Positions 1 through 5,515 of a DNA stretch of 64,000 nucleotides are shown here, in pieces. The notes beneath the pieces are model-generated. The model was not told where the DNA came from, made no database searches, and saw only the letters and a list, made by a program, of their open reading frames with translations. This DNA comes from Ktedonospora formicarum (GTDB taxonomy: Bacteria; Chloroflexota; Ktedonobacteria; Ktedonobacterales; Ktedonobacteraceae). Within the stretch, counting starts at the first letter, position 1. Every line of letters starts with the position of its first letter. The translations under genes were made by a program, and so were the position numbers. The DNA is taken from positions 372,001 through 436,000 of the forward strand of contig NZ_BNJF01000002.1 in NCBI RefSeq assembly GCF_016587355.1, in the 5' to 3' direction.

Positions 1-139
1 TGATGAGAAGGATATCATAAGGCCACCCAGAGCCAAGATGGCTCTGAATCAGCACGCTTAGGAGCGCGCGCGCGAGCGCTCCACAAAAGCCACCCGCGAA
101 TACAGCCAGGAGGCGACGCCGAGTTGAGAGAGTGTTCAT
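1..139 (-). CDS. crcB: Fluoride channel CrcB/FluC, second copy (partial, runs off the window)
   Basis: Only the first 46 codons are in the window. The visible N-terminus has a basic start followed by GGFCGALARALLS, which matches the first helix signature of the CrcB/FluC family (G-x-x-GA-x-x-R). The family forms dual-topology dimeric fluoride export channels in the cytoplasmic membrane. The start ATG at 139-137 overlaps the stop codon of the upstream crcB gene as ATGA, so the two are probably translationally coupled. A pair of adjacent crcB genes usually means a heterodimeric channel with fixed opposite topologies (family knowledge). Nothing can be said about its C-terminus. Confidence 0.85.
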   Translation of the reverse strand, partial: MNTLSTRRRLLAVFAGGFCGALARALLSVLIQSHLGSGWPYDILLI

Positions 140-525
140 CGCGTGATCTCCCATCCTAGCCACATACCTACGGCTTCCATACTCAAACCAAGCATATAGG
201 TTACTATGAGATAGAATATCCCTTGGAATCTTCTGCCACCTCTCATAAGCTGAACTCCCTCCCAGTGCATTGTACTAAAGGTGGTATAACCTCCCAAAAA
301 ACCAGTCGCCAGAACTGTCTGAAGCTCCTTTGAGAGCACATGCTGCCCCGCCAGAGCAAAGACCAGACCAATGCACCAGGCACCTGTCACATTAATGACA
401 AATGTGCCCCAGGGGAAGCTTCCCTTCATATGTTCCATAATGATACGCCCAAGGAGATAGCGTGCAACGCTTCCACAGGCTCCAGCTATGCCAACTCCAG
501 TGAACAGTAACAATGATACGAGCAT
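136..525 (-). CDS. crcB: Fluoride channel CrcB/FluC
   Basis: A 129-residue, four-helix membrane protein of normal CrcB/FluC length. It shows GACGSVARYLLG near residue 14, GTFVINVTG near residue 41 and the pore signature GGYTTFSTMHWE near residue 78, where the family consensus is GGFTTFSTF. These residues line the fluoride pathway in characterised members. The protein exports fluoride that enters as HF. Its ATG overlaps the stop of the DUF190 gene upstream (ATGA), and its own stop overlaps the start of the second crcB copy, so three genes are tightly coupled. The operon is headed by a fluoride riboswitch about 1.9 kb upstream, which agrees with the assignment. Confidence 0.95.
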   Translation of the reverse strand: MLVSLLLFTGVGIAGACGSVARYLLGRIIMEHMKGSFPWGTFVINVTGAWCIGLVFALAGQHVLSKELQTVLATGFLGGYTTFSTMHWEGVQLMRGGRRFQGIFYLIVTYMLGLSMEAVGMWLGWEITR

Positions 526-878
526 CAGGCATCGCCCCCTGGCAACAACATTTCGATAGGCGTACTTGTTATCATCCCCTGTTCCACCAGTGAATCAAGC
601 TCTACCAGAAGTGACGACAGGCGTTGCTCCTGAATAACGATATCCACTATCAAAGGGAGGTTTTCGGCAATATCTGAGAAGCGGTTTGTAGCCAGGCGTT
701 GTTGTGGCCCAAACCCCTCTATCCCACGCAGGACCGTAGCAACTAGAGCGCCATGTCGATACGCGGCTTCAAGTAGTAACTGATACAGCGGTCTCCCTTG
801 CTGCTTTTGCTCCTCTCCTATAAAGATGCGAAGGCGCTTTCCACGCAAGCGAGAGGATGCTCGTAATTGGTTTGCCAT
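525..878 (-). CDS. Small DUF190 (PII-like) protein in the fluoride operon
   Basis: 117 residues of the DUF190 family, a fold related to PII signalling proteins. The family pattern is clear: LRIFIGEEQKQQGRPLYQLLLEAAYRHG, then GA-x-VATVLRGIEGFG at about residue 45, and LPLIVDIVIQEQRL at about 74. DUF190 genes frequently sit beside crcB in bacterial genomes but have no established activity; a ligand-sensing or channel-modulating role is an inference. It starts 10 bp after the DUF190-CBS gene ends and overlaps crcB by 1 bp in an ATGA junction. The N-terminal domain of the upstream gene product is the same family, so this may be a paralogue without the CBS part. Confidence 0.88.
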   Translation of the reverse strand: MANQLRASSRLRGKRLRIFIGEEQKQQGRPLYQLLLEAAYRHGALVATVLRGIEGFGPQQRLATNRFSDIAENLPLIVDIVIQEQRLSSLLVELDSLVEQGMITSTPIEMLLPGGDA

Positions 879-888
879 AGAAGCAATC

Positions 889-2234
889 TTACCTTTCTAA
901 GAGGAAACGCAGAATATCCGAGCGCCCCACGACTCCCTGTATACACTGCTGACGATCAGTGACTGGCAAAAACTCACGACGTTTTTTCATCATACATTCA
1001 ATCGTTTCCTGAACGGAGGTCGTATCATTTACTGTTATTACCTCCGGGTTCATCACATCTGAGGCAACCTGTGGTTTACCAGTTAATACATGTAAGGCTC
1101 CAGAGGAGAGTCGTTGTGGTCGTCTACCGCGAGTCCAGTTTTGGAGCAGACCCACAAAACTTTTACGCTCGCTTGTTTGTAATCTGTTTAACACATCTAC
1201 ATCGCTAATGACACCCTGTATCTGCTGTTGCGCATTCACGACAAAGACCCGCTTAAGGGGTGAGGCGAGAAGAGCCTCAATTACTTGCGGCAGCGGCAAA
1301 GTGGCTTCTACAGTAGGCGCGATTCCCAATGGAAAGGCCCAATGGGTTGCTGTGATATCGGAGCGGAACTCAATGGTTGGCTCGGTCTTACTGTCTGCGA
1401 TCCCTGGTCTGAAGACTCATCAGCGAGCGGACTTGTCACCATCAATTGCAAGAGATCAGAACGCGAGATCATACCTTCTAGTGTTCCGTCAGACAAAACA
1501 ACTGGTAGCACATGCAGAGATGTATCCAGCATAATAGAGGCAGCATCTTTGACCGATACTTCCGGCGAAACGGTATGAACCTGACGATTCATAATCTCGC
1601 TGGCAGCAAGATCGGGCTGTGATGGCTGAGAAGCTAGTGTCTCCAGATCTGAACGGGGTAGATCGCGCATCGTGCGCATGACCCCGCGTCGTAGTGAGAG
1701 CACTTTCGCCTCGACGAGATCATGAGTACTGATGATTCCAATCAGGTGGTTCAATTCATCAACGACGGGCAATGCGCGAAAGGGAGCATCTATGAGCAGC
1801 GAGAGCAGGTATGATACCGGTGTCTCTGGCGATACGGTCACTATTGCCGTCTCCATGACCTGCTTGACTGACAACCTTGCAGATAATCTATGCGAATGTA
1901 CATGGGTATATTTGAGGACCTCTACCTCGTGCAAGGTTATGAGACCACCTTGTAGCATGGCTTCCAGTTGTGGAAGCAAGCGCATAAGGCGCTCAGGTCG
2001 ATCTATCACCTGCACAATGACTGTGGCATCAGACACAAAATGAAAACGCTCTTGAGTATGGAGGATCTTACCCGCTCCGAAGCCTGCAATAGCGCGCGTG
2101 ACAGTTGCTCCAGCGCATCGCGCCTCTCGTAGCATTTGGACAATAGCGACATACAGTGTCTTCCCATGCCATTGATCCGCTTCGCCAATATACATTGTGA
2201 GTGCCAGCGCTTTACCAGCACGCAGTAAACTCAT
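889..2234 (-). pseudogene. DUF190-CBS protein, one gene split by a 1-base frameshift
   Basis: Two overlapping reading frames together encode a DUF190 domain (about residues 1-105, with MYIGEADQWHGKTLY and ATVTRAIAGFG) followed by four CBS motifs, as in known DUF190-CBS proteins of roughly 430-460 residues. The first frame (2234-1308, 308 aa) ends after the second CBS motif. The second frame supplies CBS motifs three and four and has no ATG; its only start candidate is a TTG at 1329. Adding one T to the TTT run (A-run 1333-1335 on the plus strand) joins the frames as PIGPFPLGIAPTVEATLPL, a natural linker into CBS three. CBS pairs bind adenine nucleotides. The start ATG at 2234 has GAAAGGAAG eight bases upstream. 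It is the first gene after the fluoride riboswitch. Two coupled genes remain possible but are less likely. Confidence 0.8.
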
Positions 2235-2333
2235 CCTATCACTTCCTTTCTCATGACTAGAGCATACATATATTTTCCTCCTTTCATCCTTCTTTCTCTG
2301 GGCTCAGATCCACTCCTTCATGAACAAACAAGC

Positions 2334-2400
2334 AAAAAAGCTTCTACCACATCACACACATTGAAGCATTCTATATGCAAGTGTGAGTCAGGTAGAAGCT
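2334..2400 (-). terminator. Riboswitch-controlled intrinsic terminator
   Basis: Reading the minus strand, AGCTTCTACC (2400-2391) pairs perfectly over 10 bp with GGTAGAAGCT (2348-2339), followed by six Ts (2339-2334). CACAC and GTGTG further inside extend the stem. The 5' arm of this terminator is the 3' strand of the fluoride aptamer, so folding of the ligand-bound aptamer should prevent it. This is the layout of an ON switch: fluoride present gives read-through into the DUF190-CBS/crcB genes. Confidence 0.88.
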
Positions 2401-2436
2401 ATCAGCCAATGGCATTACGCGAGCCTCATCGCGAGG
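2391..2436 (-). promoter_or_regulatory. Fluoride riboswitch (crcB motif) aptamer
   Basis: The minus strand contains CGCGATGAGGCTCGCG, then GCCATTGGC, then TGATAGCTTCTACC. This aligns base for base with the crcB RNA: a CGCG/CGCG stem closing ATGAGGCT, a short GCC/GGC hairpin, the conserved TGAT, and AGCTTC re-pairing with GAGGCT to form the pseudoknotted core, then CTAC. The same architecture is seen in the crystallised Thermotoga petrophila aptamer. It lies about 15 bases after the predicted transcription start and about 155 bases before the DUF190-CBS start codon. Confidence 0.94.
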
Positions 2437-2458
2437 ATACTTATTGTCCCTTGCTCGT

Positions 2459-2488
2459 AGTATACCCAGGAAGCAAAAGACGCGTCAA
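2459..2488 (-). promoter_or_regulatory. Sigma-70-type promoter of the fluoride operon
   Basis: Minus-strand TTGACG (2488-2483) and TATACT (2464-2459) are separated by 18 bp, and GG precedes the -10 box. Transcription would begin near 2452, just before the riboswitch aptamer. The rest of the leader up to the divergent acetyltransferase (2489-2631) shows nothing else I recognise. Confidence 0.75.
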
Positions 2489-4181: not shown

Positions 4182-5515
4182 CAGGGCTTTCCAATTCTAA
4201 TAAACGGAACATTGCCCAGTGAGAAGAAGATTGAGAGCCTGATCCAGATGAGCATCCAAGAAGCGCATCTGGCGAGCGACATTGCGAACCCCAAGGTGAT
4301 CCATAAGGCTTAATGCCGTACTATTGAGCTGAGCAAGCAGGCTGGGAACTGAGCCAGTGCGCGTCTGGCAGCTATCTTCGCCTAGGGAGACATCTCGTCG
4401 ATAATGGAGGCGATTTTCAATGGCCCAATGCGCCCTGATAAGCTCAAGTATTCGTGCAGGAGGAGCCTGACGTAACGAGAGACTGCTGATCCCGTACACC
4501 ACCTCGTGGCGCATCTTGCCTGACTTGAGAAGGCGTGTCGTTCGTTGGAGGCGAAAAACCTGTTCAATACCGACCCAATCTCTGCCAAACCACTCATTGA
4601 GATCTGGACTACAGAGGAGTTGGCGATGTTCCAACCGCCCATGACCCTTGCTCCAGGTCTCTGCCTGCTGCCAGCGCCGCCGATCAGGGAAGGGATCATC
4701 CAGCAGATCCGCAATGTCCTCTCGCAGCGTCGGCTGGTTGCCTTTGGCGATGAGGAGGTAGTCCCCTCCCAACTGCTGCACCAGAGCACACAATGCCCGT
4801 TGCGTGTGCATAGCATCCAGTGTCAGAATGCGTCCACTCACGCAGGTAGAGGTCAACAAGGGTTTGAGGGCGCTGATTTCGTTCTCTTTCTCCCCCACGT
4901 TGCAATGCCACAGCACCGTGCCCGTTGCCACCTCATAACAACTGAGTTGATGTACAGGATGAGCCCCTTGGGTGGTCCCTCTCAACGTTTTGCCATCAAT
5001 GGCAATGTGAGCATGATCCGCTTGGGCAGATGGGGTGTGTAAGCGACTTGGTTCCTCCCCACAGCGGCTTTGGGCCTCCCACCGGGTGAAAAAGGCTGAA
5101 AGCAGCACGTCGAGGTGCTTGTCATCTACTCTTGCGAGCACATTGCAGTAGGTCATCTGGCATGGCATCTTCTCCCGACGCAGCCCGAAGCGCTGTGCGA
5201 GAACCCCTCCGCGATGACGAATCCATTCGGTGGCTCCACTCAGGGTCTTTTGCCCTGCCAACTTGGCGAGCACAAGGAGCGAGAGAATCAAGGCGAGTTC
5301 GTAGCGCTTCCCTTGTCCTCTTCTCTTGTCTGAAAGTGCTTGTAAGCTCTGATAAAGCGAGGTCACTGGAACTCTCTCAGGATCCTCTTCGGCTCGCGCT
5401 GTTAGCGTCCATATGTTATAGTCCATGCAGAGTTTTCCTTTGTAGGTCTTGGTTTTTGTATTCTACAAGGAAAGCTCTTCTTTTTCACCTCCTCTTCTAG
5501 AATTGGAAAGCCCTG
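4182..5515. mobile_element. Complete ISAs1-family insertion sequence, 1334 bp
   Basis: Both ends are visible. The 18-bp terminal repeat CAGGGCTTTCCAATTCTA lies at 4182-4199 and its exact inverse at 5498-5515. Directly outside, TATCCTTTTC occurs at 4172-4181 and again at 5516-5525, a perfect 10-bp target duplication. Such long duplications fit the ISAs1 family (8-10 bp). The single transposase gene fills the element and its stop codon lies inside the left repeat. Perfect ends and an intact gene indicate a recent, probably still active copy. Confidence 0.96.
4197..5426 (-). CDS. ISAs1-family transposase
   Basis: 409 residues, full length for ISAs1 (H-repeat-like) transposases. The DDE-type core is readable: HIAIDGKTLRGT near residue 140, ILTLDAMHTQRA near 200 and the C-terminal RAHWAIENRLHYRRDVSLGED with the catalytic Glu. 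An N-terminal DDE-associated domain precedes it (GLRREKMPCQMTY). The ATG at 5426 has AAGGA nine bases upstream. The gene is intact. It lies wholly between the two terminal repeats of its element, and its TAG stop at 4199-4197 is part of the left repeat. Confidence 0.96.
   Translation of the reverse strand: MDYNIWTLTARAEEDPERVPVTSLYQSLQALSDKRRGQGKRYELALILSLLVLAKLAGQKTLSGATEWIRHRGGVLAQRFGLRREKMPCQMTYCNVLARVDDKHLDVLLSAFFTRWEAQSRCGEEPSRLHTPSAQADHAHIAIDGKTLRGTTQGAHPVHQLSCYEVATGTVLWHCNVGEKENEISALKPLLTSTCVSGRILTLDAMHTQRALCALVQQLGGDYLLIAKGNQPTLREDIADLLDDPFPDRRRWQQAETWSKGHGRLEHRQLLCSPDLNEWFGRDWVGIEQVFRLQRTTRLLKSGKMRHEVVYGISSLSLRQAPPARILELIRAHWAIENRLHYRRDVSLGEDSCQTRTGSVPSLLAQLNSTALSLMDHLGVRNVARQMRFLDAHLDQALNLLLTGQCSVY

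Follow-up and report, generated by a model that had tools for sequence, protein, structure and literature searches.

Positions 2488-2334 of the minus strand in the window (the whole 64,000-nucleotide stretch of DNA analyzed here) very probably form a transcriptional fluoride riboswitch, read from the sequence as an ON switch placed before genes for fluoride export. This reading draws on sequence anatomy, on membership in covariance models, on the way both alternative pairings covary, and on the neighboring genes. By analogy with characterized homologs, the RNA at this site would be expected to bind fluoride, to choose between the two folds during transcription, and to permit read-through in a fluoride-dependent manner.

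Anatomy and class membership of the aptamer

The aptamer core occupies positions 2436-2391 of the minus strand. The elements of the leader and of the downstream operon are the following:

2483..2488, minus strand: -35 hexamer TTGACG (sequence; hexamer and spacing recur upstream of homologous aptamers)
2459..2464, minus strand: -10 hexamer TATACT, 18-nt spacer from the -35 hexamer (same comparison)
2386..2442, minus strand: fluoride (crcB) riboswitch aptamer, RF01734 alignment span (28.3 bits, E 5.5e-6)
2430..2433, minus strand: stem P1, 5' arm CGCG, partner of 2421-2418
2422..2427, minus strand: pseudoknot 5' strand GAGGCU (sequence and covariation)
2418..2421, minus strand: stem P1, 3' arm CGCG (sequence)
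2405..2413, minus strand: stem P3, GCC-AUU-GGC (sequence and covariance model)
2394..2404, minus strand: conserved U38 (2404), A40 (2402), U41 (2401), and U48 (2394), with A40-U48 as the linchpin pair
2395..2400, minus strand: pseudoknot 3' strand AGCUUC, also part of the terminator 5' arm (sequence and covariation)
2391..2400, minus strand: terminator 5' arm AGCTTCTACC / AGCUUCUACC, overlapping the pseudoknot 3' strand at 2400-2395
2339..2348, minus strand: terminator 3' arm GGTAGAAGCT / GGUAGAAGCU, perfect 10 bp with the 5' arm
2334..2338, minus strand: terminator U tract, TTTTT (sequence)
1308..2234, minus strand: first gene, PII-like DUF190 with two CBS domains, 308 aa (domain search)
889..1329, minus strand: C-terminal CBS pair, separated by a frameshift (comparison with relatives)
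525..878, minus strand: DUF190 protein, PII-like fold, 117 aa (domain and structure comparison)
136..525, minus strand: Fluc/CrcB fluoride channel subunit 1 (domain and structure match)
1..163, minus strand: Fluc/CrcB subunit 2, N-terminal part, running out of the window (full gene L003 7612-8163)

All pairs of P1 and P3 form, the pseudoknot joins 2427-2422 to 2400-2395 with six pairs out of six, and the conserved GAUG (G5-G8, 2430-2427) is intact. The conserved nucleotides outside the linchpin presumably play the ligand-pocket roles known from the crystal structure. In characterized fluoride riboswitches, the A40-U48 linchpin is locked by fluoride (PMC8752731).

When the region (401 nt) was searched alone with permissive filters against all 4227 Rfam families, RF01734 aligned over its full length, with zero non-standard pairs marked, at 28.3 bits. 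At whole-genome scale, the match has an E value of 3.4e-5 and is one of two in the genome. The Rfam crcB search named as a check in the initial annotation thus recovers the class, but below the gathering score of 34 bits, a curation cut-off that reflects no structural feature and was not used here as a defining criterion. A scan of the whole 64-kb window at the gathering threshold matched zero Rfam families, so that a plain scan overlooks the aptamer, and detecting it requires a relaxed threshold or a model made for the clade. Such low scores are the norm in the clade: a survey of 29 genomes of the same family yielded 44 RF01734 matches at E <= 0.001, 18 of them above the gathering cut-off and 26 below. 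A clade model trained on 32 other aptamers, with both the window copy and the copy from the same-genus genome G016 held out, matched 2437-2393 at 45.4 bits (E 1.7e-13), the sole match in 64 kb at E <= 1. The covariance models, together with the covariation among relatives and the gene context described below, bear out the class, strand, and coordinates initially proposed for the aptamer.

Other Rfam names returned at the aptamer site (flavivirus cHP, miRNAs, and sR2) were dismissed as weak chance matches. Also excluded was a doubtful RF01734 match in another genome (G009:C4:425071-425127), which has no overlapping terminator in the sequence inspected and was missed by a pseudoknot search. In many aptamers of the clade (L004, L006-L008, L012-L014, L018, L019, and L025), P1 and P3 are separated by an additional hairpin, variable in length, that the window copy lacks.

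Promoter, terminator, and the shared strand

Upstream of the aptamer, the TTGACG and TATACT hexamers were located to the base (2488-2483 and 2464-2459, minus strand), as originally claimed. In a consensus scan, this pair is at chance level, with 3 found and 3.1 expected. The support comes from relatives: TTGACG and TATACT separated by 17 or 18 nt also precede homologous aptamers, at a distance of approximately 16-23 nt, in the genomes G002 and G016, and among 40 aptamer upstream regions, the best hexamer pair reached at least 10 of 12 consensus positions in 40%, compared to 1.35% of mononucleotide shuffles. Given this comparison, a sigma-70-like promoter is probable, albeit not proven.

Downstream, the strand 2400-2391 pairs in 10 of 10 positions with 2348-2339, followed by the U tract, forming a predicted intrinsic terminator that is mutually exclusive with the pseudoknot. 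The 10-bp stem that had been proposed, with the 3' strand of the aptamer serving as its 5' arm, was accordingly found to be perfect, with an exact overlap and with covariation in relatives. When the downstream 91 nt were shuffled 20000 times with dinucleotide content preserved, a 10-bp arm complement appeared in 7 shuffles and a complement followed by a T run in 0. A consensus terminator scan, limited to loops of at most 8 nt, overlooked this hairpin with its longer loop. The folding energies, calculated without regard to pseudoknots in the fold or to kinetics, are -24.7 kcal/mol for the terminator hairpin, -15.2 for its 10-bp base alone, and -6.0 for the pseudoknot helix; in a simple growing-chain fold with the same restrictions, the terminator base forms only once the polymerase passes about 2344-2340.

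Both alternative pairings are reflected in the variation among relatives. Across 46 aptamers (41 distinct), aligned with a model lacking the pseudoknot, 96.7% of the cells in P1, P3, and the pseudoknot are paired, in contrast to 34-53% for slid structures. Two-sided changes occur at 7 pairs, and the observed covariation score was reached by 0 of 500 shuffles. Relatedness can raise such a count, yet the slid controls retain the relatedness and collapse. For each of the 38 distinct switches scored, a terminator arm followed by a T-rich tail could be matched to the pseudoknot 3' strand, in a search that specifically sought such an arm and is therefore biased towards detection. The bases at position 46 in the pseudoknot 5' strand, the shared strand, and the terminator arm are, in that order, A-U-A for 20 of these switches and G-C-G for 17, with one exception. 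This joint change of three strands indicates that the shared strand remains able to pair with either of two partners, which is what the switching model demands. For the fluoride class, a comparable covariation model of the complete riboswitch is already in the literature (PMC13273304), so that the mechanism is established for the fluoride riboswitch family.

By this mechanism, RNA polymerase would start near 2452, as judged from the position of the -10 hexamer, and the nascent RNA would fold P1, P3, and the six-pair pseudoknot and bind Mg2+-fluoride. Locking of the A40-U48 pair (2402-2394) by fluoride would keep the strand 2400-2391 in the aptamer, blocking the terminator and allowing read-through into the genes for DUF190-CBS, DUF190, CrcB, and CrcB. 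With fluoride absent, the 3' arm would capture the shared strand, and the resulting hairpin over the U tract would stop transcription at about 2334. The ON-switch logic put forward initially is supported by the covariance models, the covariation in relatives, and the Fluc/CrcB gene context.

Comparison with characterized fluoride riboswitches reveals one difference that may bear on switching. The window copy and the Bacillus cereus crcB switch (RF01734) share the pseudoknotted aptamer, the A40-U48 linchpin, a terminator that includes the pseudoknot 3' strand, and control (predicted here) of a Fluc/CrcB gene. In contrast to the B. cereus switch, the window copy has a P3 of three pairs with a triloop, a 42-nt stretch containing a second stem between the terminator arms, and a GAGGCU/AGCUUC pseudoknot with G.U at position 4 and U-A at position 1, where B. 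cereus has a U.G wobble. The Thermotoga petrophila aptamer, for which a crystal structure is available, has the same core and a nearly identical pseudoknot 5' strand, GAGGCC; its pseudoknot helix, calculated at -10.4 kcal/mol, is stronger than the -6.0 kcal/mol helix of the window. Hertz et al. give a GC pair at position 1 for T. petrophila and report that, in the two systems they tested, B. cereus and T. petrophila, switching requires the U.G wobble; U-A does not occur among the position-1 variants in the sections consulted (PMC11077080). The U-A pair in place of this wobble counts against the window copy as a working switch. Among the 41 distinct aptamers of the clade, U-A is the commonest pair at this position (18, against 15 U.G and 8 C-G).

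The fluoride-export operon and competing readings

The genes behind the switch fit a response to fluoride toxicity, with two Fluc/CrcB genes in the operon; the CrcB protein matches solved Fluc channels. The first gene has its start codon at 2234, preceded by AAAGGAAGTGATAGG. The order of switch, DUF190-CBS, DUF190, CrcB, and CrcB recurs in two other genomes (G004 and G011). Relatives encode the DUF190-CBS protein in a single uninterrupted frame of approximately 450-550 aa, and the copy that was scanned has four CBS domains; in the window, a frameshift at 1308-1329, in the linker between the CBS pairs, breaks this DUF190-CBS4 protein and may be real or a sequence error. Upstream of the locus lies a gene for a DDE transposase of the DDE_Tnp_1 type (window 4197-5426). 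In the same-genus genome G016, promoter, aptamer, and terminator are kept (L038 3486-3545, G016:C1:6270485), with a CrcB fragment approximately 0.6 kb further on; judging from its sequence, this locus is a putative decaying copy of the operon.

The most serious competitor of the ON-switch reading, albeit an improbable one, is that the window carries a weak or decaying switch, that is, a homologous aptamer that has become a fixed attenuator with little response to fluoride, given that its pseudoknot is a variant, its P3 is short, and the first gene behind it is damaged. The sub-threshold Rfam score, the U-A pair at position 1, and the frameshifted DUF190-CBS4 gene are all compatible with decay, as are the homologous promoter, aptamer, and terminator in G016 that precede a CrcB fragment only; furthermore, a second, stronger switch located nearby with a CLC^F gene may have relaxed selection on this one. 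However, the conserved contact nucleotides, P1, the pseudoknot, and the terminator arm are all intact, both CrcB reading frames are open, and a score under the cut-off is usual in the clade. Counting against the ON-switch reading more generally, only 17% of 1901 Rfam fluoride sequences switched in vitro with E. coli polymerase (PMC13273304).

Two further readings are far less probable. The hairpin is strong on its own and could, in principle, be a constitutive terminator or attenuator that resembles a fluoride aptamer by chance, but the E value from the held-out model, the covarying pseudoknot, and the position in front of fluoride exporters leave this explanation next to no likelihood. Slightly less implausible, yet still very unlikely, is a fluoride switch that works mainly via translation or mRNA stability instead of termination. 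The 100-nt leader between the terminator and the start codon leaves space for other control; nonetheless, the 10-bp hairpin with its U tract overlaps the pseudoknot exactly, and the ribosome site, approximately 85-90 nt past the U tract, is too distant for direct masking by the aptamer. A transcriptional ON switch is the reading that we retain.

A second exporter module, DUF190, and implications

The other fluoride aptamer of this genome, a consensus-like one (61.7 bits), lies 0.7 kb outside the window on the minus strand (G000:C2:371337-371277; L003 7337-7277). It has its own overlapping terminator and stands before a CLC^F gene (L003 7113-5785; entire module G000:C2:371337-369785). The encoded protein (L003 5785-7113) contains all three CLC^F signatures, GNNLI, GREGT, and GEVTP (GNNLI, GREGT/V, and GEVTP in PMC11139923), and matches the structure 6d0j with an E value of 3.1e-64. 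Its closest relatives are Paenibacillus proteins (66-68% identity), one of which is encoded immediately behind a fluoride switch of 61.6 bits, whereas the best match reaches at most 34% identity within the family of the window and 51% among 151 sampled genomes of the phylum. Because the nearest relatives are from Paenibacillus, one with the same switch, horizontal acquisition from Paenibacillus-like Firmicutes beside a resident Fluc operon looks like the simplest reading of these sequences. The second switch and that of Paenibacillus humicus (L068 3889-3949) share with the window copy the RF01734 aptamer and the overlapping terminator; unlike the window copy, they are consensus-like (61.7 and 61.6 bits) and predicted to control a CLC^F antiporter. 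Given the Fluc operon and the neighboring CLC^F gene, this genome has both exporter types, and a separate switch precedes each; the two types occur together in only about 3% of strains (PMC11139923).

In the Fluc operon, the DUF190 genes deserve attention of their own. The predicted fold of the 117-aa DUF190 protein (mean pLDDT 74.6, five sequences) matches DUF190 structures, followed by PII-like proteins including SbtB and the SbtA-SbtB complex. Among 61 sampled genomes of the phylum, DUF190 and CrcB are both present in 18, and in 15 of the 18 (counted by eye), the genes are within about 250 bp of each other. The PII-like fold combined with adjacency to crcB makes DUF190 a candidate regulator of Fluc at the protein level, and the structural model and gene neighborhood suggest that it may act on the channel. 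By analogy with SbtB and the bicarbonate transporter SbtA, we tentatively propose, as an unlikely but conceivable scheme, a two-layer fluoride response, in which the riboswitch would be complemented by PII-like DUF190 proteins of the same operon, one of them CBS-fused, gating Fluc according to nucleotide or energy state. According to a 2024 review, fluoride channels have no identified natural regulation at the protein level (PMC11139923), and our literature search retrieved no paper relevantly linking DUF190, UPF0166, or COG1993 with crcB or fluoride.

The genome G002 contains ten fluoride aptamers within 30 kb (G002:C30:185935-215361; L032 and L033), several arranged as divergent pairs. Their neighbors encode NADH-dehydrogenase-like/hydrogenase-type subunits, UspA, a Na+/H+ exchanger, two MutS-domain proteins, a dynamin-like protein, DUF190-CBS, two CrcB, MFS, and AAA/DUF58 proteins; this cluster is, by its gene content, a putative dense fluoride-response island.

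A literature search found no paper linking Ktedonobacter with fluoride riboswitches. The switch in the window adds to an established riboswitch class and extends fluoride sensing to a clade, probably Ktedonobacteria, in whose family over half of the aptamer matches fall short of the standard Rfam cut-off. With its frequent U-A pairs at pseudoknot position 1, this clade is a natural set of variants for testing the proposed wobble requirement. The locus combines both exporter types under separate switches, one apparently from Firmicutes, and the conserved pairing of DUF190 with crcB hints at a possible regulator of the channel.
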